Of a stretch of 64,000 bases of DNA, positions 23,885 to 42,478 are shown in pieces. Where the stretch lies: assembly GCF_008086545.1 (NCBI RefSeq), contig NZ_CP043026.1, positions 62,001 to 126,000 on the forward strand, written 5' to 3'. Both the position numbers and the translations under genes were made by a program. Source of the DNA: Spiroplasma chinense. GTDB taxonomy: Bacteria; Bacillota_I; Bacilli_A; Mycoplasmatales; Mycoplasmataceae. The number at the start of each line of letters is the position of its first letter. Position 1 is the first letter of the stretch. Below the pieces are notes generated by a model. It was not told where the DNA came from and made no database searches. It saw only the letters and a program-made list of their open reading frames with translations.

Positions 23885-24475
23885 TTAAAAATAATCTCAT
23901 TTGTCATCTATTACGCTAACTAATTTATTTACACTTTCTAACTTGCTTAGTTCTTCTATCAGAAATGTGAAATAGACAAGATTCTGATCAAAATGCTTAA
24001 CAATATTTTGGACTTTTAAAGTTCTCAAACAATTCAAAACCGCTTTTTGGTTTTGAATTTCAAACTTAATAGTAACTAAATGTAATAACTCTAATTTTTT
24101 TGTTGTAATAGTTTTTAAGAGTTGTATTGCACCGTTGCTATACGCTTTTTGTAATCCACCAGTTCCAAGTTTAATTCCACCAAAGTAGCGAACACAAAAA
24201 ATTATTATGTTTGTTAGATTGTTAACTTCAAGTAACTTAAGTAGAGGTTCACCTGCAGTCCCGCTTGGTTCACCATCATTGTTGTACCCGTATTGATTAC
24301 CGTCTGTTCCAATTTTGTAAGCTCAGCAATTATGTCTTGCATCATTTCTTTTGTACTTGTTAATAAATTGGTCTAGATCCTCTTTGGTGTTGACAACACC
24401 AATGTAAGTAATGAACTTAGATTTTTTTATTGTTTCTTCAAATGTGTAAACTTTGTTTTCACTTAAGACCTTCAT
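23885..24475 (-). CDS. YigZ/IMPACT family protein
   Basis: 196 aa, typical length. Family signatures are NCWAYKIG, GEPSGTAGEPLL and VRYFGGIKLGTGGL. The family (YigZ in bacteria, IMPACT in eukaryotes) is linked to translation/stress but its bacterial reaction is not settled. It lies 10 bases before the exonuclease start on the minus strand, so the pair forms an operon. UGA Trp occurs in the N-terminal half and near the C-terminal end (DDKWDYF). Confidence 0.88.
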
Positions 24476-24631
24476 AAAAAAACCACTTTCGTTACATATA
24501 TATTCTACACACTAGTTCTCTAAAATGAAACACTTATTCGCTAATTTTTTATAGTAATCTCCATTAAACTTTGTATATCTAAACATGTTTGCTTGGCTTT
24601 GTATTTCGTAATATTGTAATTATAAACAAAA

Positions 24632-24729
24632 AAAGGGAGGCAATCCCTTTTTTTTGTTATGTCGCTCCGCGCAACCTTCTTTGTCCTACTATAACCTGTG
24701 GTTAAGTACCCAACTACATATAGCTGATT
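24632..24729 (-). ncRNA. Putative structured small RNA with own promoter and terminator (unidentified)
   Basis: On the minus strand an extended -10 TGGTATTAT (24744-24736) sets a start near 24729. The transcript is GC-rich against a very AT-rich background (for example GTTGCGCGGAGCGAC), which in such genomes usually marks structured RNA. Pairings visible are AACC/GGTT around an ACA loop, GTTAT with ATAAC enclosing an inner stem GTTGC/GCGAC with loop GCGGA, and a terminator hairpin AGGGA-TTGCC-TCCCT flanked by A and T runs at about 24630-24656. It lacks the GGAAGGAAGCAG core of SRP RNA, so I do not call it that. It could also be read as a leader of the yigZ operon. Confidence 0.55.
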
Positions 24730-24916
24730 AATTTAATAATACCATATAATTTTAAAAAATCATATTTTAAATTTATTGTCAATAGGCATTGGAGTAAAAA
24801 CTTATTTAAAAGTTTTACTCTTTTTTTTGAGCCTTTAGCTGTAAAAAAAACAAAATAGGTCATTAAAACCTTTAAATTTAGAATTTTTACTTTATAGTTT
24901 TTAATTTGCCAGAGAA

Positions 24917-24922
24917 TATAAT
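24917..24922 (+). promoter_or_regulatory. -10 box of the first exported-protein/ABC unit
   Basis: A perfect TATAAT, 22 bases before the ATG at 24944. The -35 region is weak (ATAGTT at 17 bases). Confidence 0.45.
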
Positions 24923-24943
24923 TTAGTTGAAGGGAGAAAGAAT

Positions 24944-25561
24944 ATGAAAAATACATTTTTAAAGTTAGCATCCGTTTTTTTAGTGACAGGTTCAATGGTG
25001 CCTACCATTAATGAAATAAATAATAATTTAAAAGTAGATAAAAATATAGCTAGATATGGAACAACCAGTATTTATATTTCCAAATCTCACCCATATTATG
25101 TGGGTTACTGAGGAAAAGGTGTTGTTAGAAGGAATACTGACCATGAGGCCTTAAATTTAAATATCAATTTAAAAGGAGGACTTACTAATGCTCAACTATA
25201 TAGTTCGTTAATTACATTTGTTTTTGCATCATGGGGTTGAAACTTAAGTAGCGAAGCAAAGGGTCTGGTTAGTCCTGCGACTCACACTGTTACTGTAAGT
25301 TATGCGGATTGATATTTTGGTACTAGTAAATACTCAATAGGTACAATGTTGAGATTTGACTTGCCCAGACTTATTCAAAAAGAAACTAATTATATTTCAA
25401 TGATTCAGCAAAATTATTTCAAGTTGGATACAAAAGAAAATATTTTACATGCAACAATTTCATCCATTGTCGAGACATACGTAAAGTCTTATAATTCTGG
25501 AAATAACAGAGGAACAGCTTATTATGGGCTGTCCAAAATCGATTTTAAATACATCATTTAG
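24944..25561 (+). CDS. Exported protein heading the first ABC unit (paralog of 34286)
   Basis: 205 aa. ATG 24944 follows GAAGGGAG. Residues 1-22 form a signal peptide (MKNTFLKLASVFLVTGSMV) with no lipobox Cys, so it is probably released or held non-covalently. The mature part is beta-rich with many Tyr/Ser/Gly. It shares with the 34286 product a conserved core: SIG-x-M-L-x-x-DLP-x-LI-x-KETNYISMIQ, then TYVKSYNSGNN and a C-terminal aromatic/Ile end. Both copies stand immediately before a large ABC permease. Function unknown; substrate, modulator or product of the transporter are all possible. Confidence 0.7.
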
Positions 25562-25578
25562 CTATAAGGGGTAGAGTA

Positions 25579-27348
25579 ATGAGAAAAATTAATATTCCGA
25601 AAAATGTTTTTAAAATGGCAAAAATTAACTTAAAGATGGTTACACTAAGCAAAATAAATTTTGCTTTCTTAGGTGTAATCCTTTTTGTAAATTTTGCCTT
25701 TTCAGGCATCTATATATTTTTAAATTTTAACAGAACTAATAACGCTGATTATTCATATGTATTTGCAATAGAAAATGCATGTATATTATTTTTATTTTCT
25801 TTATTTTCAATCTATTGTACATCTAGGATTTATTTTTCAACAGAAAATAAAAGTTACCAGCTTTTGGAAAGACAATATGGTTTAAAAGGTTGAGTGTCAT
25901 TTTTTGTAAGATACTTTCTAATTTTCGTCTATTTGTTGACAATAGTTTTCATATACTTTTTGTTGCAAACAATGTTAACTCAAATTAATGGGGTGAAAAT
26001 ATCTTTTCCTTTAATTAGTGCGCCTAAATTAAATCTAATTTTATACAGTATATTAGTTTTGAATGTTTTTATACTTTTAACATTAATTGTTAAAAGCTTG
26101 GCGGGTTTATTTTTAACTACATTATATATATTGTCTTTAATATTTGGACCTATTGTAACAGCTGCTTTAAAAGATGATTCACACCCCCAAAACCAAAGGG
26201 TAGTAGAAGAACTTACTTTTAAAATAAATATTGGTAAACAATTTGTTAAGTATTCAGAAAAAGATAAACTAAATCTTTATGATGGAAGTTATGAGCAACT
26301 TTTTATGTGATATGAAGATGAATATTACTTTAAAGACTTTAATCTAATGTCAAATTTAAGTAGTTTTTATCCTTATCAAGGATCAAATGTTGTGGATGCA
26401 ATTATTTATAATGATGAACCTTTAAATTTCTACTTAGCTTTTTGGATGGGACAAACTTTAAATAGAAATGAAAATAATAAATATTTACTTGGATTTAGTG
26501 ATAAGTTATTACAAGCTCATTTAGACTTAAAAACTTCTATCGAATCTATAGAAAGAAAAACAAATGTCACATGATCTCAACTACCTTATTATGAATGAGT
26601 GGAAGATGAAAAATATGTTCCTATTAATTTTAAAAAAACTTTAAAACAATTAAGAAAAACAACCTTTGGTAAAAACTATAAAAATCTATTACAGTTTATT
26701 GAACTTAATTTAGATGATTTATTAAATTATAGAGACCCTTTTAGTGATAGATATCCTTTATTTTTTTCAACAAGATTTATTGGAGGAAGTGTAATTGATA
26801 CTCCTAAGAAAAATGAATTATGAGAAAAATATATTAATAATACAAATGAAGAAGTTAATGATTTTTATAAAGCATATCCAGAGTTTCTTGTAATTTCTCA
26901 AGTATTAAATATTGGTTTAATGAATTCTTATGCCATTTATACAGGAGCTCTTAACTTTTTTGAAAACAATTCATTACAATTTTTTTCTTTAGACTATTAT
27001 GATAAAACCCTTTCAAAAATTAAAAGTAGAAGTTATGCTAATTACTTTAACTACTCTTCTTATTTAAACACTTCTTATTACAATGGCATTTATTCAAATG
27101 CATATTTAAATCAAACTTATCAATTCTGATGATTAGAACCAAAAAATTATTATGTATTAAATGATGACTTATTAATTAGTAACTGGAAAAATAACTCCTT
27201 ATCTACAAAGTCATCAGTTCTTAAAAATGATTTGAAATTAAAAAATACTCAGATTGTAATATTTGCTTACGCTTTATTTATTGCTCAAGCTAGTCTAACT
27301 TTGTTGATTAGTTTTGTGATTTACAACAGAAGAAATATTGAAATATAA
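25579..27348 (+). CDS. ABC transporter permease with large extracellular domain (unit 1, A-type)
   Basis: 589 aa. ATG 25579 follows AGGGGTAGAG, 17 bases after the exported protein. About five N-terminal transmembrane helices (near residues 27-50, 64-86, 108-132, 152-175, 176-198), then roughly 350 hydrophilic residues, then one C-terminal helix (about 557-583) and a basic end. Motifs shared by all five permeases of the array are LLERQYGLKG in the loop before TM3, GQTLNRN, YKNLLQFIE, EEVNDFYKAYPEFLVISQ and YANYFNYSSYL. Multiple UGA Trp codons break the standard-code reading. The general architecture fits ABC export permeases with an extracytoplasmic domain; no named family recognised. Confidence 0.75.
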
Positions 27349-27370
27349 AAAATCAAAAGGAGAAATAAAA

Positions 27371-28102
27371 ATGATTAAAATTGAAAATTTATCTAAAAAA
27401 TATAAAGCATTTAGTTTATCCAATGTAAGTTTTGATTTTTTAAAAGAAGATTTAATTGCTTTTGTTGGAGATAATGGTTCAGGAAAGACCACAACCATAA
27501 AGTTAATTTTTAACTTAATAAAAAAAGATAATGGTGAAGTTTACTATAACAATGATAAATTACATACTAATTCTAATTTATCAAAAATAGCATTTTTTCC
27601 AGATTCAAATAACATACCTTTAGAACTTACAATCATCGAGTATATGGAATATATAGCAGCCATCACTGATGTTGAAAAAGAAGAATTCATTATAAGATCT
27701 GAGAATATTTTTAAAATGTTAAACTTAAAAGAAATTAAAAAGAAAAAACTAAAACAATTATCTGGAGGAATGAAAAAAAGAGCTGTGATGGCTGGGATTT
27801 TAATTTCAAAACCTGAATTTATAATTTTTGATGAACCTACAGCAAATCTTGATGTTGAGGCAAAGATTGAGTTTATTGAACTTATAAAAAAATTACATGA
27901 ACGAGGAGTTGGCATTTTAATTACCAGTCATATTATTGATGAACTTCAATCAATTGCTAACAAACTTATAATAATTAAAAGTGGAAGTATTGTTTATAAT
28001 GAAGCTTTTGATAACTCAAAATCAAGTATAAAAGAAATATATTTGAAATTTAAAGATAAAAGAGAATCAAATCTTAAAGAGTTGGATAAAATTTATGAAT
28101 AG
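27371..28102 (+). CDS. ABC transporter ATP-binding protein (unit 1)
   Basis: 243 aa. Start ATG 27371 (MIKIENL) chosen for AAAAGGAGAAA; upstream in-frame codons lack a site. Walker A GDNGSGKTT at residues 33-41, signature LSGGMKKR near 130, Walker B FIIFDEPTANLD, switch His in LITSHII. Nearly a twin of the 31739 product, with identical runs such as FFPDSNNIPLEL and VEAKIEFIELIKKLHE. The next permease starts inside its last codons with an 8-base overlap (ATGAATAG). Confidence 0.93.
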   Translation: MIKIENLSKKYKAFSLSNVSFDFLKEDLIAFVGDNGSGKTTTIKLIFNLIKKDNGEVYYNNDKLHTNSNLSKIAFFPDSNNIPLELTIIEYMEYIAAITDVEKEEFIIRSENIFKMLNLKEIKKKKLKQLSGGMKKRAVMAGILISKPEFIIFDEPTANLDVEAKIEFIELIKKLHERGVGILITSHIIDELQSIANKLIIIKSGSIVYNEAFDNSKSSIKEIYLKFKDKRESNLKELDKIYE

Positions 28103-29864
28103 TTTAAGGATGAATGTATTATTTTCTTGATTGAATTTCAAATTTATTTTTAAAAGTATCATTAACTTTGTTTTTCTAATCTCAATATCAGTTTTATTTT
28201 TCACGTTTTTGGGTCTTTATAGTTCTTATGATTTAAAAAGTGATTTTGAAATAAAGTATTACAAACTAATTTCAATTGAAAATACTTTGACTGCAATTTT
28301 GTTTGGTTTCTTTTCAATTATTTTAGTAGCAAAAGTTTATGTAACACCAGAAGCAAAAAACAGATATCTTATGGAAAAGCAATACGGTATAAAAACTATT
28401 AAATCTTTTGGCTTAAGATATTTGACCATAATTATGTATTTGTATTTAACTATTTTTGCATATTTTATTTTACAAATATTTACAATCCCTTTTATTGTTG
28501 CAACCAATATTTCAATAAAGATGATAGTAGTTCCAAAACTTAATTTACTTATTTTCTCTCTTTTAACTTCAAGTTTATCACTTATCTTTTTAACAATTTT
28601 TAACTCCTTTTATGGAATAATTGCTGCTATCACTTTAATTTCCTTTATGAGTTTAGGATCTATTTTTTCAGCCTTAGTTAAAGCTGACTGAAAAAATAAA
28701 AATGATATCATGTTAGGAGAAATAACTTATAACATAAAATTAGGTCAAGAATTTTATAAGGCGGCTGTTAAAGATGGTTTTAATTTTTATAGTGAGGATT
28801 ATCATCTTTTTAAATTAAATGAACAAGATGAAAATTACTATTATAAATATTTTGAAGGTTCTGAAAATCTATCATCATTTTATAAAAATAAAAATATTGG
28901 CAATATTAAAGCTGATTTTTCAAATTTCTATGCAACTTTTTTAAAAGGACAAAATCTAAACAGAGATATTTTAGAAAACAACGGTGAAGTCAAATTTATT
29001 TTAGGATTTGATTTACAATATTTAACTTTTTTCAACGAATTAAAAGAGTTTTTACAATCTAAAGACTTAATGTCAAATTTAAAATGACAAGATACACCAA
29101 GTTACAATGATATTTTAGAGATAAAACCTATTAAATTTGATTTAACTAACTTTGTATTGGAAATCAAAAAAAGTGAAATGATGAGTCGCTATAAAAATTT
29201 AATTTTATTTATTGAAAAAAATTGAAATTCACTTTTAAATAAAAATTATAATAACATTTTTAAATATAAAGTTTTTGAAGAAATAAATGTTTTACCAGAA
29301 GGTGACAACATTGAAGAAAAACTTTGAGAGAGTAGTGTTTTATTTCAAAACAAAGAAGTAAATGATTTTTACAAGAAGAACCCTGAATTCTTATTAATAA
29401 GTCAAATACTAAACAAAGGTTTTGTAAATTCATTTAATATCAATTTTTTAAATCATGTAATTTATACAGATAGGGTTAGAAATTATGTAATCACTTTAGA
29501 TGAGTATGATAAATACTTAAAAAACAATAAGACAAGTCAATTTATAAATATTTTCAATCTTAATGGTTATCTTAACTCTCAATACTTTAATAATTTTGAA
29601 AAAGCCATTTTTTTAAATCAAGTACAAGGGTTATGGGATATAAAACAAACTAAGTACTTTGATATTAGAAAACAAATAAAGTCAAATGATTATTGAAGTC
29701 AAGAACAAGATTGAGTAGATACCACAAGATCAATTTTTAGTGACTTTGGAAAACCTAAAAATTCCAATATTCTTATTTACATCTATGGTTTTTATCTTTT
29801 TGTTTTTACAATAGCTTCATTATTATCTTTCTATATTTTTTTAAAAAAAAGAGAAGTTTGGTAA
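28095..29864 (+). CDS. ABC transporter permease with large extracellular domain (unit 1, B-type)
   Basis: 589 aa, exactly the length of the permeases at 25579 and 32463. Start ATG 28095 overlaps the ATPase stop by 8 bases, as at the equivalent 32463 junction. Same topology: helices near 20-43, 60-82, 107-135, 150-170, 172-195, a domain of about 350 residues, and a C-terminal helix with end FLKKREVW. Shared motifs: LMEKQYGIKTIKSFGLRYL, GQNLNRD, YKNLILFIEKNW, EVNDFYKKNPEFLLISQ, QFINIFNLNGYLNSQY. Closest to the 32463 product. Several UGA Trp codons. No stand-alone terminator is obvious before the next unit. Confidence 0.75.
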
Positions 29865-29937
29865 TTAAATTTAGAGTCTGCAATGTGATAAATGTTGGCA
29901 ATTAATATTGAGTGGTTATAAGGCTTTTTTTCTATTG

Positions 29938-29943
29938 TATAAT
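29938..29943 (+). promoter_or_regulatory. -10 box upstream of the second ABC unit
   Basis: A perfect TATAAT in the 217-base gap between the permease genes at 28095 and 30082, with no convincing -35. The transcript would carry a leader of about 130 bases. Confidence 0.4.
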
Positions 29944-30081
29944 GATAAAGAAGTAAACGTTGAAAAAAACTTCTAACAATTATAACTATAGTGCTTTAAT
30001 TTTGGGATTCTTATGTTTATCTAAAAAACCCCAATAAATATAAATCAAGAATTAGATATTTTGTTAGAAAGGATGAACGCT

Positions 30082-31719
30082 TTGAAAATAATCTATAATA
30101 ATAATTTTTTACCTATTTTTAAATTAAATGCAAAAAGAACATTTTTAAATAAACAAAATTGTATCTGACTTGCATCTTTCTATATGTTTTACGCAATAAT
30201 GTTGTTATTGTTTTTCTCTCTAGGAAGTCTTGATAAATCAAATGAAAATTTTTGAAAGCTTTTAAGTTTCGAAAATATATTTAGTTATATTTTCATTTCA
30301 TTATATAGTGGTTTTATAATGATAAAACTTTATTTTTCCAGCGAAGCAAAAAGTTATTTACAAATTGAAAAACAATATGGTTTTAAGATATGAAAAACCT
30401 TTGTTGTAAGATTTTCTTTATTTTTTTGTTATATGTTTATATTTATATCAATAAAATTTTTACTATCTTTTATACTTACATTAAAATATGATCTTAGTTT
30501 TATAGTATTATATTTTTCCCTGCCAAATTTTAATTATTTATTAATAATCTTGTTTATTTTCAGTATAGCTTTTATAACTTTATTTTTATTTAATCAACTA
30601 TTAGGTCCTCTAGTTTATGCATCTATAGCGGTTTTACTTTCTGTGGGCCCAATAATTTCAAGTGCTATGAAAACCGAAATTGACCTTATGAATGTCAATT
30701 CTGTAAATACTCTACTTTTTAATGCACAAATAGGTAAAGATTTTTACGATGCTATTAAAAAAGATGGATTGACATTATATTCTGGAGAACAAAATCAACA
30801 ACTCTTTAAAATGGATGAAGACTCAGAATTTTATTATTCATATTTTGAAGAGTTTTTAGATACAGAGCCAGCTGAAAATTTTATACGTATATCAATTGAA
30901 GAAGATTTGTATAAACCTTATACATTAGGCCAAGCTTTAAATAAAAATTCTATAAACGGAGAAGATAAATATGTTATGGGTTTTGATAAAAGTTTTTTGG
31001 ATATGTTTTTTTCACTTCAAGATAGTGTAAAAGACTTAAATGTTAGTACAGAAAAAGCAAAACAGTTACCGTATAAAGAAATTGTAGAATATTTAAAAAA
31101 ACAGGAATTTGGAGAAAAATATAAACACTTGTTAAGTTTCGTTCAAGAACATAATGAAACCATTAGGGGTTATGTTTATGATGAAATGTTTAATCAAGAT
31201 GAGTATGATGAAAACAATTCATACAAAAAATTTTATATGGACAACCCCTCATTTTTGATTATTTCTCACACTCTGATTTTTGGATTTAAAAATTCCTTTG
31301 CTCTTGACAGTCGCTTTTTTCGTTTTACTTTAAAAGATGAAACAACTCGTAGAATGAGTGTAAGTGATTATTTTGATATAATAAAAGAGTCTAGGAAAAG
31401 ACAAATATTAAACTACTTTAATTTTAATAAGTATCTACAATTTCAATATACCAACCAAATTAAAAATGGGGAATATTTATATTTGGTTTATGGCTTTTGA
31501 GATAGTGAAATAATTGAATATTTTCAAATATCTCAAGACGCGATGAATAAAGGTGCAGACAATGAACCCTTAGATACAAGAAGCTCCATTTATTCAAAAG
31601 ATTTTGAAACCAAAAAAACTTATATTTTAGTTTATGTTTATTCGATCTATTTAATAAAAATAATTTTAGGCTTAGTAATTTCTTTTATTCTTTTTAAGAA
31701 AAAGAGTTTTAGAGATTAA
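30082..31719 (+). CDS. ABC transporter permease with large extracellular domain (unit 2, A-type)
   Basis: 545 aa from TTG 30082. TTG is preferred over ATG 30073 because AGAAAGGA lies 9 bases before TTG but abuts the ATG, and the paralog at 34971 also uses TTG behind a similar GTGAAC sequence. Topology as in the other permeases: N-terminal helices in the first 200 residues, a large soluble domain, a C-terminal helix with end FKKKSFRD. Motifs: LQIEKQYGFKIWKTFVVRF, GQALNKN, YKHLLSFVQEH, KFYMDNPSFLIISH, QILNYFNFNKYLQFQYTNQ. Most like the 34971 product, with which it shares the ILVYVYSIYLIKI C-terminal helix. UGA Trp codons at several points. Confidence 0.75.
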
Positions 31720-31738
31720 AAAAGAAAGAAGGGTTAAA

Positions 31739-32470
31739 ATGATTCGTATTGAAAATTTAACAAAAAAATATAAAGACTTTAGTATAGAGAATATATCTTT
31801 TCAGATCTTAAAAGATGAACTAATAGCTTTTGTTGGAGATAATGGTGCTGGTAAAACAACCACAATTAAAGCAATTTTCGATTTAATAAAGAGAGATGGG
31901 GGAGAAATTTATTATAATAACGAAAGTTTATTTTCAAATTCTAACTTAACAAAAATTGCTTTTTTCCCCGATTCAAATAATATTCCCTTAGAATTAACCG
32001 TTTTAGATTATATGGAATATATTGCTGCAGTTACAAGTTTGGGTAAAAAAGAGTTTTATGCTAGATCTGAAAACATTTTGGAAATGTTAGAATTTAGAGA
32101 TGCTAAAAAGAAAAAGTTAAAAAATTTATCTGCAGGTATGAAAAAGAGAGCTGTAATGGCAGCTATACTAGTTTCTAAACCTGAATTTATAATATTAGAT
32201 GAGCCAACAGCTAATTTAGATGTTGAGGCAAAGATTGAATTCATAGAACTAATTAAGAAATTACATGAAAAAGGTGTGGGTATTTTAATTACAAGTCATA
32301 TTATTGAAGAATTACAAGAAGTTGCTAATAAATTAATAATAATTAAAAAAGGTAAATTAGTGTTTAATGAAAAAATAGATAATAAAAATATAAGCATTAA
32401 AGAAATTTATTTGAAATTTAAAGATGATAAAGAATCGAAGCTTGGTGGTTTAGACAAAATTTATGAATAA
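31739..32470 (+). CDS. ABC transporter ATP-binding protein (unit 2)
   Basis: 243 aa. ATG 31739 follows AAGAAGGGTT. Walker A GDNGAGKTT, signature LSAGMKKR (Gly to Ala in the second position of the classical LSGGQ), Walker B FIILDEPTANLD, switch LITSHII. Same length as the 27371 ATPase and highly similar throughout, including stretches of near-identical DNA, so a recent duplicate. Overlaps the next permease by 8 bases (ATGAATAA). Confidence 0.93.
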   Translation: MIRIENLTKKYKDFSIENISFQILKDELIAFVGDNGAGKTTTIKAIFDLIKRDGGEIYYNNESLFSNSNLTKIAFFPDSNNIPLELTVLDYMEYIAAVTSLGKKEFYARSENILEMLEFRDAKKKKLKNLSAGMKKRAVMAAILVSKPEFIILDEPTANLDVEAKIEFIELIKKLHEKGVGILITSHIIEELQEVANKLIIIKKGKLVFNEKIDNKNISIKEIYLKFKDDKESKLGGLDKIYE

Positions 32471-34232
32471 TATACAGTTTAAGTATTTATTTAAAATTTC
32501 AAAAATTAATTTTAGATATATTACTAAAAATTATATAAACTTAGCATTCTTATCATCGTTTGCGATCATTTTTATAATTTTTTCAGCATTGTACTTAAAA
32601 ATAAATTCTAAAGAAAGTTATGACACTGTTTATTTAAATTTATTGGCTATAGAAAACACTGTTGTATATTCATTTTTTGGTTTCTTTGCGGGATTTCTAA
32701 CAATTCAAATGTTTTTCTCAAAAGAAGCTAAGAATTATCAAATTCTAGAAAAACAATATGGTTTGAAAGTTTATAAAAGTTTCTTAATAAGATATTTATC
32801 ATTAATGTCTTATGTCATGATGGTAACTTTATTATATATTTTATTAGAAGTTATGGTAATTTATCTAGGTCTTGGAAATGGAGATTTAGCAAAAATAATT
32901 GCCTTGTCAAAATTTAATTTACTAATTTTTATACCTGTTATATTTGGGGTTACTTTTATTCTTACAATACTTGTAAAGAATGAAATTGGAATAATGTTAA
33001 CTGTGATATATATTTTGTTTGTAAATATTGGACCTCTTTTTTCGGCTATATTAAAATCTGAATCTGCAAGAAAAAATGATATTTTAATAGGTGAGGTAAA
33101 TTTTAATATAAAAGTAGGTAAAGATTTTTTTGAAGCCTCACAAAGAGATGAATTAAATCTTTATGATGGAAAAAGTCACTTGTTTAAACTGAATAAGGAA
33201 GATGACAAATATTATTATAATTTTTTAAATGATTCAGAATTATTAACTAGCTTTAGAAATTTTTCAACCTCTAACGAAATAAAAGTTGATTTTAGGAATG
33301 TCTATTATACATATTTATCGGGGCAAACTTTAAATAGAGAATATGTGGGAGATGATGTTAAATATATTCTTGGTTTTAACAAAGAATATATTAATTTCTT
33401 TATAGAATTACAAGATTTTTTACAAAGTAGATCAAGATATGTTAGTTTTAGTTGAGAAGAAACTCCTTTCTTTGTAAAATCTTTTCCTCAAAAATTAAAG
33501 AAGTTTGATTTTAATAAATTGATCGATGAATTAAAACATTCAAATCTGAACACCAAATACCCCAATCTAATAAGATTTGTTGAGCAATATTGAGACTTTA
33601 TCTTAAATTACAACCTAAATGAGTTATTTTCTTATAAGCTTTTTACAGAAGATGGTGGAGTTGATTCTAAAGGAGATGAGGTTTGAGATAATTTTGTTTT
33701 AACACAAAATGAAGAGGTTAATGATTTTTATAATGAATATCCTGAATTTTTACTTTTATCACAAGTGATAAATATAGGATTCATAAATTCTTTTAATTTG
33801 AATATTTCAAAATACAATATATCATCTTCAAAAAATGTTGATATAGCTTTTGAAATTGATGAATATAAAAAAATGTTAAACAAAAATAAAGTTAATCAAT
33901 TTTTGAATTATTTTAACTATAATAGTTATTTAACAGGTCAGTTTTTATCTTCAAATAAAGCAACTCTAGCTTTAAATCAATTAAAGAAAACATGAACTTA
34001 TTCTTCTGTTAAAAACTTTGTTATAAATGAAGAAATGTTAAATAACCAAACAGATCTTGGATATGATTATGATTTTATAAATACTTCAGAATCAATATTT
34101 TCAAAATCTATAAAGGAAAAACATACAAACATATTGATATACATTTATAATGTAAATTTTGCTTTGATGGTTGTTTTGTCTGGTTTAAGTTTTTGAATAT
34201 ACGTTAAAAATTCTAAAAAAGATTGAAATTAA
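32463..34232 (+). CDS. ABC transporter permease with large extracellular domain (unit 2, B-type)
   Basis: 589 aa. Start ATG 32463 overlaps the ATPase stop. Helices near 22-46, 63-85, 108-135, 150-170, 175-198; soluble domain of about 350 residues; C-terminal helix (about 560-580) then VKNSKKDWN. Motifs: ILEKQYGLKVYKSFLIRYL, GQTLNRE, YPNLIRFVEQYW, EEVNDFYNEYPEFLLLSQ, QFLNYFNYNSYLTGQF. Closest to the 28095 permease. Several UGA Trp codons. A new promoter follows in the next gap. Confidence 0.75.
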
Positions 34233-34239
34233 GAAAATA

Positions 34240-34268
34240 TTTCCAATTTAACTAAATTATTATATAAT
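34240..34268 (+). promoter_or_regulatory. Promoter of the third exported-protein/permease unit
   Basis: TTTCCA (34240-34245), 17-base spacer, TATAAT (34263-34268), then GGAGGTGG and ATG 34286. The leader would be very short. Confidence 0.6.
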
Positions 34269-34285
34269 GTAGTTGGAGGTGGATT

Positions 34286-34918
34286 ATGAAAAAACTTATT
34301 ACTGTTTTAGCAAGTACATTATTAACTATAACTCCAATATCAGCTTCTTCGGGGGCAATTAAAGAAGAATACCAAGTTAACAATAAACTAAGGGTTGATT
34401 CTAGAAGTGTTATTAAAAAAACAATTTCATTAAATAGAGGAGAAACACACGATGTTGGCCCTAGAGACACCAAAGGCAGTTTAACCTTTAGACCAAATAA
34501 ATCAGCAGATTTTTTTATAGATTTAAAAAATATAGGGCTTACAACACAACAATTATATAGCTCTAAATTTACTTTTAATTTTAATAGTGTTTATTGAGAT
34601 TTAAGAAGTGATGCCAAGGGTTGAGTTATTCCGAACCCTGAAAGTTTTGAAGTTTCTTATCTGGAATGGTATACAGGACAGTCGGATCACTCAATAGGTA
34701 AGATGCTGGTCGTTGACCTACCACAATTAATTAAAAAAGAAACTAATTACATATCTATGATTCAAACAAACTTATTCCTGCTTGATGAAATAAATAGGGT
34801 TGTATATGGCAATATTTTCACTACAATTACAACCTATATTAAATCTTATAGTTCAGGAAATAATACCGGAACAGTATGATTCGGAATTAATAGTATAGAT
34901 ATTGAATATTTTGCTTAA
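34286..34918 (+). CDS. Exported protein heading the third ABC unit (paralog of 24944)
   Basis: 210 aa. ATG 34286 follows TTGGAGGTGG. Signal peptide at residues 1-21 (MKKLITVLASTLLTITPISAS), no lipobox Cys; cleavage near ISA-SS is plausible. The mature protein shares with the 24944 product the block HSIGKMLVVDLPQLI then KKETNYISMIQ and TYIKSYSSGNNTGT. Three UGA Trp codons (for example VYWDLRSDAKGW). Followed by a hairpin and then the permease at 34971. Function unknown. Confidence 0.7.
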
Positions 34919-34928
34919 TAACAAACAG

Positions 34929-34949
34929 CACTCACTTGTGAGTGTTTTT
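34929..34949 (+). terminator. Hairpin between exported protein and permease (terminator or attenuator)
   Basis: CACTCAC (34929-34935) pairs with GTGAGTG (34938-34944), then TTTTTA. Placed 10 bases after one stop and 22 before the next start, it may reduce rather than stop transcription into the permease. Confidence 0.55.
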
Positions 34950-34970
34950 ATAAATAAGGCGGTGAACAAT

Positions 34971-36599
34971 TTGGAAAACAAAAATATATTTAAGTTTTAT
35001 ACACTGGCAAAAATTAATGCCAAAAGATTATTTCTTAATAAGTCTAATTACATTTCTTCAATAATTTATTTAGGTTATTTTTTGGTTTTTTATTTATTGT
35101 TTTTATTTAACGGAGGGGCAACTAAAGACAATGCAGCTTTTTGAAAAATACTCGCTTTTAAGAGTATGTTTTCGTATATTGCATTAAACGTGTATCTTGG
35201 TTATTTTGTTTTAAAAATATTTTTCTCAAATGAAGGTAGAAATCTTTTAACTATTGAAAAGCAATTTGGAATTAAAGAATGGCAATCATTCTTAGTAAGA
35301 TATTTTTTAGTTGTATGCTACATATATTTATTTATAGGATTGGAATCTATATTGCTACTTTCGTTAGCGGTGAATTTTGATATTTCCTTTATTGCGGTTT
35401 ATGTCGCTTTGCCTCATTTAAACTATTTATTATTAGTGTTATTCATTATAAGTATTATTTTTATTTTAGTAATTTTATTTAGTAAAGTGTTAGGGACAAT
35501 TTTTTACACTACTTTAATGGTGTTAACAGCATCAAGTCCAATACTATCAAGTGCTTTAAAATCAGAAAATAATTTTGAACACGTCAGAAGTGTTGATGAG
35601 TTTTTGATTAATATAAATTTGGGTAAACAGTTTTATAGGGCAGCAAAAGATGACAACCTGACCCTATATTCCGAAAATGCTCAACAACTTTTTGGTGATT
35701 GATCAAATCCATTTTATTATTCTTATTTAGGCGATGATGGTTCCTTGATGGGGTTGAATAACTTTAATGAAAATGCCATGAAAAAATTTGATGAAAATTT
35801 ATGAAAGTCTTATTTTTATGGTCAAACCTTAAATAAAAACTTAATTAATGACGAAGAAATTTATATCATGGGATTTGATCCAAGTTTTTTAGACATGTTC
35901 TTATCGTTAAAAGAAACTTTAAAAGATATGAAAATAAATAAAGAATTGAATGGTTATTTACGAGTTGTTAATACTGTAAATGAATTAAAAAAGACAAATT
36001 TTGGTTCTAAGTATAGAAACTTAGTTAGCTTTGTTGAAAAAAACTATGAATTATTCCAATACAAAGAGAACGACTTTAAAATAGATGACAACAATTCGGA
36101 GAAAGAATTTTACCAAGAACATCCTGAATTTTTACAAATTTCAAGCTTATTTACACAAGGTTTTACAAAGTCATGAATGATAGAAATTGGTGATATTTTT
36201 ATCATTGATCAAAATTCAAATACAAGAAAAATGAATTTAAATGATTATTATGAAATAATTTCAAAATCTAAAAAACGTCAATTTTTGAATTACTTCAACT
36301 TTAGTAAATACTTACAATTTCAATATTCAGATCCTTTATACACTAATCAATATTTAAGTTCTGTATATTATTTCTGAGATCTTGAAATTACTAAATACTT
36401 TAAGGTCGAAGAAAACATGTTATATAATTCTGTTGCAAATTCTAATTTTTTAAACACAACCTCATCAGTTTTTGATAGTGGAGTTGAAGTTAAAAAAACA
36501 AATATTTTAGTTTATGTTTATAGTATTTATATAATAAAAATACTTATCGGATTTATTGTTTCTATTTTTCTTTTTCAAAAGAAAAGTTTTAGAAATTAA
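34971..36599 (+). CDS. ABC transporter permease with large extracellular domain (unit 3, A-type, no ATPase partner)
   Basis: 542 aa from TTG 34971, with AAGGCGGTGA upstream (an in-frame GTG at 34962 is the alternative). Motifs: LTIEKQFGIKEWQSFLVRYF, GQTLNKN, YRNLVSFVEKNY, KEFYQEHPEFLQISS, QFLNYFNFSKYLQFQY, end FQKKSFRN. Closest to the 30082 permease, including the ILVYVYSIYIIKI C-terminal helix. Unlike units 1 and 2 it is not followed by an ATPase and B-type permease; a terminator and secA come next. It may share ATPases from the neighbouring units or be a decaying copy. Confidence 0.75.
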
Positions 36600-36607
36600 T
36601 AATATCT

Positions 36608-36645
36608 AATTAAAAAAGAAATCTAAAGATTTCTTTTTTAATTAA
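36608..36645 (+). terminator. Terminator of the ABC array
   Basis: A perfect 16-bp hairpin (36608-36623 with 36628-36643, loop TAAA) with a T run in the 3' arm. Confidence 0.85.
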
Positions 36646-36692
36646 CATATATTTTTTTGAAGGGTTTTATACCAAAAAGTGTTAAAAAACTA

Positions 36693-36698
36693 TATAAT
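36693..36698 (+). promoter_or_regulatory. -10 box of secA
   Basis: TATAAT 54 bases before the secA ATG. The -35 is weak, as often in this genome. Confidence 0.45.
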
Positions 36699-36751
36699 TA
36701 TTTTGTTTATGATTTAGTTTAAATCATTTTTTAAGAGAGGGAGTTGCTTAA

Positions 36752-39700
36752 ATGGCACGCGATAAAGGCATAATTAAAAAACATGCAAAAATAGCAGATT
36801 TAATAATTGCAAATGATGCAAAATATAGTGGTTATACTGATGAACAATTGAAAGCAAAAACAGATGAATTTAGAGAAAGACTTGCAAATGGAGAAACTTT
36901 AGATGACTTACTAGTAGATGCATATTCTGTAGTAAGAGAAGTTGCTTATAGAGTTTTAGGAATGAAAGCATTTAAAGTGCAGTTAATTGGGGGTATTATT
37001 TTACACCAAGGAGATATTGCAGAAATGAGAACAGGGGAAGGAAAAACTTTAACAGGTCTTTTCCCAGGTTACTTAAATGCACTTTCAGGACAAGGGGTTC
37101 ATGTTGTTACAGTTAATGAGTACTTATCACAAAGGGATAGCGAAATAAACGGACAAGTTTATAACTTCTTAGGTTTAACTGTAGGGTTAAACGGAAGAGA
37201 TTTATCTAAGGATGCAAAAAGAGCTGCATATGCTTGTGATATTACATATACTACAAATGCAGAACTTGGATTTGATTACTTAAGAGATAACATGGTTTAT
37301 GCTTTTGAACAAAAAGCTCAAAGAGCATTAAACTTTGCAATTATTGATGAGGCTGACTCAATCTTGATTGACGAAGCAAGAACACCATTAATTATTTCTG
37401 GGGGAAGTCAAAACAGAATTAACATGTATATGGCAGCAGATGCTTTTGCAAAAACTTTAAAAGAACCTGAAGATGTAGAAATAGACTTGGAATCAAAACA
37501 AGTATATTTAACAGATCAAGGAATTCAAAAAGCACAAAAATACTTTAGTGTTGATAGTTTATTTGATGTAAGAAATACAGAGGTATTCCACTTAATTATG
37601 AATGCCTTGAAAGCAAACTTTACATTCAAAATTGAAATTGAATATACTGTACAAGACAATGAAATTGTATTGATTGACCAATTTACAGGTAGAACAATGC
37701 CGGGTCGTGCATACAGTGATGGATTACAACAAGCATTGCAAGCAAAGGAAGATGTTTCAATTGAAGAAGAAACTTCAACATTAGCTACAATTACTTACCA
37801 AAACTTCTACAGACTTTACAATAAACTTTCAGGTATGACAGGTACTGCTAAAACTGAAGAAGAAGAATTTATCAAAATTTATAACACAAGAGTTATTGTC
37901 TGTCCAACAAATAAACCAATCATTAGGGTTGATGAAGCAGATTTAACATTTGGAACAAAACATGCAAAACTTAAAAAAATGATGGCAGACATCAAAGAAT
38001 TAAATGATGAAGGTAGACCAATCTTGATTGGTACAACAAGTGTTGAATCTTCAGAACAAGTTGCTCGTTATTTAGAAAAGGCAAACTTTAAATTCGAAAT
38101 GATTAACGCCAAAAATCACCATAGAGAAGCTGAAATTGTTGAAAAAGCAGGACAAGTTAAAGCTATTACATTGGCAACCAACATGGCAGGACGTGGAACT
38201 GATATTAAACTGTCTGATGAAACAAGAAAACTTGGTGGGTTGTTTGTTATGGGAGTTGAGCGTAACGAAGCTAGACGTATTGACAACCAGTTAAGAGGAC
38301 GTGCTGGACGTCAAGGTGATCCAGGTTCATCAAGATTCTATATTTCTATGGAAGATGACTTGATGGTAAGATTTACAGCTCCAAAAGTAAGACAAATGTT
38401 CTTAAGACTTGGAGATGAACATATTAAGTCAAGAATGTTTACAAGAGCTATTACAAATGCTCAAAAGAAACTGGAAGGTTTAAACTTTGATCAAAGAAAA
38501 AATGTTCTAGATTATGACAATATTTTGAGTCAACAACGTGAAGCTATGTATGCTCAAAGAGATGACATTCTTTTACAACCTGATTTAAAAGTTGTATTAG
38601 CAAAATTCCAATACACAATGGCATTTGAAACTATTGAAGAATGTAGTGAACTTGTTCGTGGTGAAAGAACAGTTGACGTACCAAGATTAATTCAAGTTTT
38701 AAACAAAGACTTTATTATTCCAGGTTCTTTAAAAGAATCAGATATTATTGGTTTAGAAAAAGGTCAAATGGCAAAATTAATTCAAGAAAAAATGATGGAA
38801 CTTTATGTTGCAAAAACTTCATCAGTTCCTGAAAACGTAGTTCATGAACTTGAAAGAAGAACTATTTTACAATCATTTGATAAATATTGAACACGTCACA
38901 TTAACTTAGCACAAAAACTTAGAAGTGGTATTTACTTGCAACAATATGCTCAAAATAACCCACTTCATGAATATGTTGAAGAGTCTTCAAAACTATATAA
39001 TAGAATGAAAATTTCTATTGCCTTTGAATCAATGGAAAGATTGTTGAACTCATTTAACACAGCACCTCAAGAGCAAACAATTAATGTTGAAAAACCTCAA
39101 GAGAGAAAAGTTATTAATGTAACAGAAAAAGATATTGACCAAATACTTACTGAACTTGGAATTGATAAAAGAGAATTCTCAAGACCAAAAGTTCAAGAAA
39201 GATTAGTTGAATTAAGAGAACAATTTAAAGATGATTCAGAAATGCTTAGAAAATTAGATCTACAAGAACACGTTCTTGGAGGATTGATGGACAAGTTAGA
39301 TAACATGTTTGAAAAACAAAAAGGCATGATGGGAGAAATCTCAAAAGAAAAAATCGATCAAGTAGTTGAAAGATTTGGACTAACTGGAAAAGCATTTACA
39401 GCTGAAGAAGTAAAAGGTTCATTTGAAAAACTAATGGAAGAAACTCCTGACGAAGAAAAAGATGAACTATTAATTCATTCACAAATTTTAATGGCTATTG
39501 CAGAACAATTATCAAGAGCTAAAGAAAAAATTGAAAAAGCTGCAAAAGAAGAAAAAGCAGAAAACAAATCTGAGACAAATATGAAAGCTCCAGATTCTGT
39601 TAAAGAAAAAGAAATTGTTAAAAAACCAGAAGCGAAAGGTGACGAATATATTATTCGTGACAAAGATGGAAATATAACAAAAGTTATAAAAACAAATCCT

Positions 39701-39991: not shown

Positions 39992-40729
39992 ATGATAGAG
40001 GTAAGAAATTTATCCAAGATATTTAAAAGTGGAGGTGGAGTAAATGACATCTCATTTTCCTTTCAAGAAGGAGACATAGTTGGTTTAATCGGTGATAACG
40101 GAGCTGGAAAATCAACAATAATAAAAACAATTTTTAATGAGTATAACAAAAATTCTGGAGAGATATTTATTGACAACCTACCTATTACAAAAGAGAGTTA
40201 CAAAAAAATGAGCTTTTTTCCAGATCAAAGTATCTATCCCAACAACATTTCAATAGAAGATTATTGTGTGTACTCTGGAATGTTGGCTGGTGTTAGCAAA
40301 AAAGATTGTAAGATCAGAACTGAAAAACTTTTAAAATTTTTAAGTTTAGAAGCTTATGCTAAGAAAAAGTTTAAGATTCTTTCTGCTGGAATGCAAAAAA
40401 GAGCAATGTTAGCAATAACTATGATTTCAAATCCTGACATAATAATTTTGGATGAACCAACTGCAAATTTAGATGTAACAACAAGATTTGAATTTATGGA
40501 TTATTTAAGACAATTGGCAGGAAACAAAAAAACAATTTTGATAACAAGTCATATCATTAATGAACTACAAGGACTTGTAAATAAAATAATAGTTATTGAT
40601 AAAGGGAAAAAAATATTTGAAAACTATTTAAAACCTGGTGATGAAATTTTAAAAATTTACAAAGACGCAACCGAAAAAGCTTTGCTTGGTCAAAGTCAAA
40701 GCAAAGATATAAACGATATTTTTGGTTAA
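39992..40729 (+). CDS. ABC transporter ATP-binding protein
   Basis: 245 aa. ATG 39992 follows ATCGGAGGAA. Walker A GDNGAGKST at residues 34-42, signature LSAGMQKR, Walker B IIILDEPTANLD, switch LITSHII. It is of the same subfamily as the array ATPases (shared FFPDQ/FFPDS and DEPTANLD contexts) but clearly more distant. Cotranscribed with the permease three bases downstream. Confidence 0.92.
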   Translation: MIEVRNLSKIFKSGGGVNDISFSFQEGDIVGLIGDNGAGKSTIIKTIFNEYNKNSGEIFIDNLPITKESYKKMSFFPDQSIYPNNISIEDYCVYSGMLAGVSKKDCKIRTEKLLKFLSLEAYAKKKFKILSAGMQKRAMLAITMISNPDIIILDEPTANLDVTTRFEFMDYLRQLAGNKKTILITSHIINELQGLVNKIIVIDKGKKIFENYLKPGDEILKIYKDATEKALLGQSQSKDINDIFG

Positions 40730-40732
40730 AAC

Positions 40733-42478
40733 ATGATAACTGTATTTAATTTTCATGCGTTAAGAATTTTAAAATCAAAGTTTTTTATACTTATCACAGT
40801 GGTTTGGATTTTATCAACTTTTTTATTCTCGTTGCTTGTAATAAATTTAGATAGTTATGATTCAAAAGTATTTAGAATGATAAGTTTTATATTTCTAATC
40901 ATTTCTTCAGTTCTAATTTTATGTACATGCAATATTGCATGAATTCCAAACTTTATGATTTCCGATATTGAAAACGGTATTCAAAGTTTGGAAGTAAGAC
41001 GTGGAGTAAATTTAAAGTATTTAATTTTTATTAAATTATTAATTGTCAAATTAATTACATTAAGTTTTATAACTTATGTTATTTTGCAATTTGTGATATT
41101 GCAATCTATTTTGAATCCATTAAATAATTGGGTATACAGTAAGGGCATACTTCCAGGACTATGTTCATTGTATGCTCTAGATATTTTAATGACAGGTATT
41201 ATTTTTATAATAGGTTCTAGTTTGAAAATAAAATTAACAGTGGCTATCCCTGCTTTTATTTCTTCGCTATTTACATTATCACCAATTGTTGGGGTAATAC
41301 AATTTTCTGCAATGGCAAGAAATTCCCATCACTATATGAGTGATGGGAAAAAAGTTATGTCAGAACTTTTAGATCAAAGGAAAGCTAAACCAAATGGTTT
41401 ATTTGATTGGATAGTAAAAAATTTAAAAGATCTAAATAGTTATAACCAATCTTTTTCATTAAAAGAATATGACGATTTGTCTCAAACTGAAAAAGATGTG
41501 GCAGAAAAAATAAAAAATGGATTATTTGAGAAAGAAGGTTTTTTGACAATAGCTTTTTCAAATACAGGTTTCCTAGTAGATGGAGAAGAAGTTTTAAATG
41601 AAATTAGAATTATAAAATCAATTGGATTGGTAGAACAAAGCAATTCATTTAAACAATCAAACATTTACAAATTTTTAAATCTTCCTGTTTTTACAGAGGG
41701 TTCAGGAAAATTTGAGGATACTTTTTTTAACAAACAAAGTCATGCAAATATTAGTGGTAAAGGTCAATTGGATGATGTGATAAAGGTTTTAAATTCACAA
41801 GAGAATATTGATGAGCTAAATAAAGAATTGAATTTAGAAATTGATAGAAATGAAATGATTGCATTTAACAAAATACTAAAAGATTATTTTGTTAATTATT
41901 TAGCACCGAATCATATTATTGTTGGTATCAATAAATATTTCGAAAGAAATTCTTTTGGAATAGGTGATACAAAATTTGAAATTGACGAAAAGGATGCACA
42001 TAATTTCAGTATGGTTAGAAACGGTGCCAAACTATATCAAAGTATTTTGTTCAATGCTATAAACGATTTGAATAGTTTACCAGATAAGGTAGCTGAGGAA
42101 ACTCAAGATATGTATGATGCTATTGTTGATAAAAAAATTACAAGTTTTGTACCCTATGTTTTAAATCCTTTAACTGGTTTCAATTACATGACAATTTTTT
42201 CTGGCATAAATACAGATTTTGAACAAGAAATTTATTTGGCAAGAAGTTTTTATATTGAATCTTTCACAACCATTAGATTAGCATTACCAATAACTGACAG
42301 GGAATGGGAAAAAAACTTTGGAGAAACCTATAATTCTGATGGTTTATTTCCAGTAAGTTCAGTGCTAATAACAAAAAAAATTATTCCAACAAAATCATTT
42401 TATATGGCTTATTTCTTTTCTGGATTGATATTACTGGTAATAGGTTACTTTATATATATTAAAAAAATAGTAATCTAA
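40733..42478 (+). CDS. ABC transporter permease with large extracellular domain
   Basis: 581 aa. ATG 40733, three bases after the ATPase stop. Plan like the array permeases: helices near 18-38, 46-70 (ending at a UGA Trp), 97-125, 135-160 and 165-190, then a hydrophilic domain of about 350 residues, then a C-terminal helix (SGLILLVIGYFIYI). The loop SDIENGIQSLEVRRGVNLKY replaces the EKQYG motif of the array, and the GQTLNRN and NYFNY motifs are not evident. A distant cousin with the same architecture. Confidence 0.75.

Follow-up and report, generated by a model that had tools for sequence, protein, structure and literature searches.

Which kind of transporter is encoded by the nine-gene array at positions 24944-36599 of the Spiroplasma chinense DNA analysed here, and what do its exported proteins contribute? 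The stretch (the window, 64,000 nucleotides) corresponds to C1:62001-126000 of a genome consisting of a single contig of 1.37 Mb. A preliminary description, made from the window alone, had listed exported proteins, ATPases and permeases of two types, A and B, in a fixed order on one strand. According to the structural model, the permeases are type V ATP-binding cassette (ABC) transporters of the NosY/ABCG/ABCA fold, with six transmembrane (TM) helices in an ABCG-like arrangement. The array itself is a lineage-specific insertion that was amplified in tandem between yigZ and secA, and for the permease family as a whole the evidence supports a dedicated exported partner. Individual genes are named as in Table 1.

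Fold class of the permeases

The five array permeases were clear paralogues (27-45% identity, 52 invariant columns). Hydropathy and the model agreed with the description in giving each of them five N-terminal helices, an outside domain of ~350 residues and one C-terminal helix, and the loop charges agreed with the positive-inside rule. The motifs reported as shared were present in all five, in a looser form with small substitutions (E[KR]Q[YF]GxK, GQxLN[RK], YxxLxxF, FYxxxPxFLxxS and NxFNxxxYL). The first of them (EKQYGxK) lies outside the ectodomain, in the cytosolic coupling-helix region between TM2 and TM3, where the most conserved residues (E96, G100 and R110) were also found.

Permease B2 was modelled as a monomer with AlphaFold from 47 sequences (predicted local distance difference test score, pLDDT, 81.3; predicted template modelling score, pTM, 0.82). 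The model displayed an amphipathic elbow helix at residues 6-22 (FKYLFKISKINFRYITK, lysines along one side) preceding TM1 (24-47), then TM2 (54-85), a coupling helix (87-98), TM3 (103-137), TM4 (141-170), TM5 (173-197), a mostly helical outside domain (about 206-552) and TM6 (557-588). Foldseek alone gave no match to this model at E 0.001. Alignment with VIA-align of the chains listed by Foldseek gave NosY as the best match (Z 19.3 over 260 residues), followed by ABCG2 (18.3), ABCG5 (17.7), ABCA1 (16.6) and PmtCD (13.9); unrelated chains in the same list remained well below the type V chains (Z 7-9). Since the type V alignments spanned ~250 residues of B2 and took in both the first and the last helices, the outside domain is read as an insertion between TM5 and TM6.

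The structure-based classification assigns the ABCG/ABCA/Wzm fold to type V, which is marked by an elbow helix and by re-entrant helices in the TM5-TM6 loop (PMC8386196); in the B2 model it is this loop that holds the 350-residue insertion. Bacillus possesses type V-like exporters whose large outside domains have an unknown fold (PMC11466899), so that a large domain on a type V fold has precedent, and a mostly helical domain of ~350 residues at TM5-TM6 of this fold is apparently undescribed in the open-access literature. The permease family is a variant within the known type V class and no new transporter type.

The initial impression that no described family was involved held for curated families: no Pfam or NCBIfam family matched the array permeases. 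None of 47 family members scanned against Pfam-A exceeded a gathering score (four weak sub-threshold matches to domains of unknown function, one member each), the permease profile found no relative among PDB sequences (chance matches in coiled coils only), and no description of the family was found in the open-access literature. The impression did not hold for the membrane part, which belongs to a known fold class. The array permeases also lacked a Pfam ABC-2 match, a point of difference from NosDFY.

MacB and FtsX (type VII) resemble the array in combining an ABC permease with a large outside domain able to act mechanically. Type VII transporters possess four TM helices and FtsX-like folds (PMC8386196, PMC11466899). 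Membership was rejected on account of the six TM helices, and PF02687 matched 14 places in the genome but none in the array. The Bacillus subtilis hybrid V/VI exporters NatAB, YhaQP and LnrLMN are closer in build, with a type V-like part, separate ATPases and a large extracellular domain that belongs to no known family; that domain is described as a domain-swapped five-stranded sheet with flanking helices (PMC11466899), whereas the array ectodomain is predicted to be a mostly helical TM5-TM6 insert.

ABCG2, ABCG5/8 and ABCA1 share with the array the predicted type V fold (Z 16-18), the elbow helix and the TM5-TM6 outer loop as the site of elaboration. They differ in that the array ATPase is on a separate chain and the array insertion is far larger than in ABCG, and the two groups were unrelated at the level of sequence profiles. 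The presence of human sterol and lipid transporters (ABCG5/8, ABCG1, ABCA1) among the close structural matches favours an ABCA/ABCG-like flippase family, expanded to acquire or export host sterols and lipids and employing the exported proteins as carriers. Wall-less bacteria of this kind rely on host lipids, which also speaks for such a role. Type V members carry many kinds of substrate, however, so that the fold says little, and fast divergence together with lineage-specific copies better fits a changing antagonist than a constant nutrient; a lipid or sterol function is distinctly unlikely.

ABC ATPase 1 of the array matched PF00005 (E 4e-25). Its best NCBIfam relatives were DrrA, GldA and the lantibiotic-protection ATPase, none of them above its own cut-off; against TIGR03740 the array ATPases scored 132-140 bits for a curated cut-off of 309.75. 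Lantibiotic-immunity systems (LanFEG with LanI) have the same gene set of an exported protein, one ATPase and two permeases. LanE and LanG are ~250 amino acids long and are not known to carry an ectodomain. As the array permeases differ in size and build and the ATPase lies far below the family cut-off, the array was not filed under LanFEG. No bacteriocin genes were seen near the array.

Distribution of the family and origin of the array

A search profile (A3) of 18 diverse members matched all five array permeases over their full length. It matched all 20 sampled genomes of the genus, at 3 to 19 places each, and was nearly absent outside the bacterial family, as seen in 395 sampled genomes of the class. 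As counted from profile matches, the S. chinense genome contains 18 intact family permeases. Nearly all intact family units adjoin an ATPase of the same kind, and at several loci a single ATPase lies between or beside two paralogous permeases.

Most genomes share a core locus of the order ATPase-permease-ATPase-permease between a ribonucleotide-reductase-like gene and ptsI. Its permeases fell into two distinct clades, each containing one member per genome, a pattern that fits an obligate heterodimer. In one genome (G192:C1:107074-111456) the core locus was broken by many stop codons and is therefore dispensable there.

One clade (support 1.0) united the five array permeases with a single unit located at 788 kb in the S. 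chinense genome and with single units of two relatives. The array was absent from the yigZ-secA site in 19 relatives: secA directly followed yigZ in 11 of them and unrelated genes lay between the two in the others. It is this combination of a single array clade with a site devoid of the array in relatives that identifies a lineage-specific insertion and amplification. The tandem amplification proposed in the preliminary description is thereby retained, but its repeating unit (exported protein, permease A, ATPase, permease B) is not strictly kept, the second unit being devoid of an exported gene and the third of its own ATPase and B. The pairing of B1 with B2 was recovered, while the former type A covers two types: permease A1 fell outside both the C1/C2 pair (support 1.0) and the B1/B2 pair (0.96).

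Within the array the ATPases were 75% identical, compared with 38-45% for the permeases and 42% for exp1 and exp2. Gene conversion between the ATPases was considered and is not needed, as third codon positions are only 57% identical.

All nine listed genes were intact, in the reported order and on the + strand when read with genetic code 4 (TGA as Trp), as in Mycoplasma and Spiroplasma; code 11 was rejected because it broke the open reading frames. The flanking genes are a yigZ-like gene (- strand, ending at 24475) and secA (starting at 36752). The listing had left out an ATPase-permease pair of the same architecture past secA (39992-42478); one relative (L105) also has a family unit between secA and uvrB.

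Table 1. Coordinates of the array genes and associated features in the window
Feature	Position	Strand	Remarks
exp1	24944..25561	+	Sec-type exported protein, 205 amino acids, without lipobox; open reading frame in code 4
Permease A1	25579..27348	+	589 amino acids; 5 TM + ectodomain + 1 TM
ABC ATPase 1	27371..28102	+	243 amino acids; Walker A, LSGGM signature and Walker B present; without regulatory domain
Permease B1	28095..29864	+	589 amino acids; 8 bp overlap with ATPase 1; sister of B2 (support 0.96)
Permease C1	30082..31719	+	545 amino acids from TTG start, AGAAAGGATG upstream (alternative start ATG 30073, 548 amino acids); sister of C2 (support 1.0)
ABC ATPase 2	31739..32470	+	243 amino acids; 75% identical to ATPase 1
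Permease B2	32463..34232	+	589 amino acids; overlaps ATPase like B1; chain used for structure prediction
exp2	34286..34918	+	Sec-type exported protein, 210 amino acids, without lipobox
Hairpin followed by T run	34927..34946	+	between exp2 and permease C2; fold -8.6 kcal/mol, z -1.8
Permease C2	34971..36599	+	542 amino acids from TTG start; no adjoining ATPase of its own
ABC ATPase of distant sister unit	39992..40729	+	between secA and uvrB; 42% identical to ATPase 1
Permease D	40733..42478	+	581 amino acids; same 5+1 TM architecture; deep branch of the family

The hairpin between exp2 and permease C2 might act as a partial terminator; more exp2 than C2 could then be produced, in line with a role in capture. 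A perfect AT-flanked hairpin ahead of the array (24628-24654, AAAAAAAGGGAGGCAATCCCTTTTTTT) is readable as a terminator on both strands. Across the genus the yigZ-secA interval (here 24475-24944 and 36599-36752) was variable: in most species it was empty, and in others it contained a SnoaL-like gene, other unrelated open reading frames or, in this case, the inserted array. The S. chinense genome possesses a second cluster at 421-438 kb (L100:4319-14335) with three permeases, two ATPases and two exported proteins; its permeases belong to the deep branch shared with permease D. Elsewhere in the family, two species that are otherwise divergent shared a permease gene with 95% identity at the DNA level over 1.74 kb (L120:5195-6934 of G178 and L201:5103-6841 of G196), with transposase-like open reading frames adjoining it in one of them. 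This indicates recent horizontal transfer of a single permease gene.

Exported proteins as probable partners

The preliminary description had regarded the exported proteins as dedicated to these permeases. Neither Pfam nor NCBIfam contained a family for exp1. The exp1/exp2 family displayed no convincing match elsewhere in 317 genomes of the order, so that the idea of a partner was not contradicted. An AlphaFold model of exp1 consisted nearly entirely of strands (pLDDT 51, pTM 0.44); the protein is predicted, with low confidence, to be all-beta, and the model was too weak for fold matching. Other family units carry different exported proteins in the same position.

At family level the association was strong. 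With exported status called by a simple and crude signal-peptide rule, an exported gene lay directly upstream on the same strand in 21 of the 51 non-core units, compared with 24 out of 354 ordinary gene pairs taken from those regions (~7%; odds ratio 9.6, Fisher p about 1e-9). After units with permeases at least 40% identical were collapsed, 16 out of 43 still displayed such a gene (p 2e-7). None of the 18 core units did. Most gaps between exported gene and unit were below 50 bp. Co-inheritance of the exported partner, with homologues in different species, was seen in at least five orthologous groups, and the partner was usually the most divergent member; in one group, ATPases were 84-88%, permeases 51-53%, exported proteins 29-33% and neighbouring housekeeping genes 88-95% identical. 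Co-inheritance and greatest divergence would be expected of a dedicated partner that changes fast.

The same observations bear on the view that the family consists of ordinary multidrug exporters whose exported neighbours are incidental. The ATPase resembles DrrA and the membrane fold is as in ABCG2, but drug export needs no large conserved ectodomain, and the strong neighbour enrichment and the co-inheritance of exported genes disfavour such an explanation, which is quite improbable.

The exported genes are tightly linked within the operons, at many loci with only about 4-20 bp between genes, and this could also indicate that the ABC system is a dedicated secretor of the small exported proteins, a role offered as one option in the preliminary description. 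The partners possess Sec-type N-terminal signals or lipoboxes and hence another way out, many units, conserved ones among them, have no partner, and the substrates of type V carriers are lipids, drugs and polymers; type V channels are not known to pass folded proteins of 200 or more amino acids. For these reasons secretion by the ABC genes is very improbable.

A single common beta domain in the partners of distant units, suspected by eye, was dropped when profile comparison gave no support. One domain (A6) was genuinely shared by three exported proteins near family units (L110:11045-11848, L099:11987-13096 and L100:10208-11764), none of which matched Pfam. It is C-terminal, about 150 residues long, carries the pattern YSNVNWMKSYG...AYATAWNAxWAR and was found in 27 out of 60 genomes of the bacterial family. 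Only a few of its 43 matches adjoin family permeases and most lie elsewhere, which is why A6 was rejected as a partner-specific domain.

Proposed mechanism and candidate roles

The structural and evolutionary part of the explanation, namely the type V fold, the TM5-TM6 insertion, the family and its amplification, is highly probable. For the complex itself, two six-helix permeases, different paralogues forming a heterodimer, would probably sit on a homodimer of a single ATPase. The TM5-TM6 outer loop of each would have grown into a helical surface domain of ~350 residues, with which the separately encoded, Sec-exported protein likely cooperates outside. ATP-driven motion of the permeases may then remove an amphipathic molecule from the outer leaflet or pass it on, the exported protein acting at the wall-less surface as the subunit that captures or accepts it. 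The probability that an amphipathic ligand is handled in this way at the outer face, in partnership with the exported protein, comes close to an even chance without quite attaining it.

Several points weigh against this mechanism. The B2 model is a monomer, and both the heterodimer and the ATPase stoichiometry are assumed. All NCBIfam matches of the array ATPase lie far below the curated cut-offs. Profile comparison detected mostly no homology between the exported proteins of different units, and the term partner therefore rests on position and co-inheritance. Finally, an exported gene immediately upstream is missing from 30 of the 51 non-core units that have a same-strand upstream gene, as it is from all 18 core units, and the permease can therefore work without a partner.

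Outside the proposed ligand handling, the ATPase cycle may move the ectodomain and thereby activate, release or remodel the exported protein (an adhesin, hydrolase or toxin-like protein), with no substrate being moved. NosDFY is a type V ABC transporter with an exported partner in the maturation of nitrous oxide reductase. NosY being the best structural match (19.3 over 260 residues, as above), NosFY acting on NosD offers a model with the same membrane fold, a separate ATPase and a separate exported protein. Ectodomain and partner also diverge together, and the exported partners are beta-rich. Yet core units retain the ectodomain without any partner, NosY has no 350-residue TM5-TM6 domain, and no NosD-type domain turned up when exp1, exp2 and ten other exported neighbours were scanned against Pfam. 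Mechanotransmission of this kind is rather unlikely.

Returning to a ligand handled at the outer face, the first-choice substrate, by analogy with LanI-LanFEG, would be host antimicrobial peptides or similar membrane-active compounds. Defence against peptides, already among the roles suggested at the outset, is thus weakly favoured and remains a tentative assignment. Lipids or sterols, handled in the manner of ABCA1 with its acceptor, would come second, as a guess.

In its broadest and rather doubtful form, the proposal is that these proteins constitute a new class of surface machine: a type V motor whose TM5-TM6 loop would dock a dedicated, co-inherited and fast-evolving exported protein. Such machines would have diversified as tandem arrays during an arms race against hosts or competitors, with the motor, the docking domain and the partner acting as exchangeable recognition modules. 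The TM5-TM6 loop is in any case added here as a place where type V transporters can gain a large outside domain.

Wall-less bacteria associated with insects and plants have neither a wall nor an outer membrane between their own membrane and host defences. A genus-wide, fast-diversifying surface ABC family with paired exported proteins, reaching 18 copies in 1.37 Mb, represents a large investment in a family without curated entry. The array and its relatives provide concrete candidate gene sets for work on peptide tolerance, lipid handling or host interaction.

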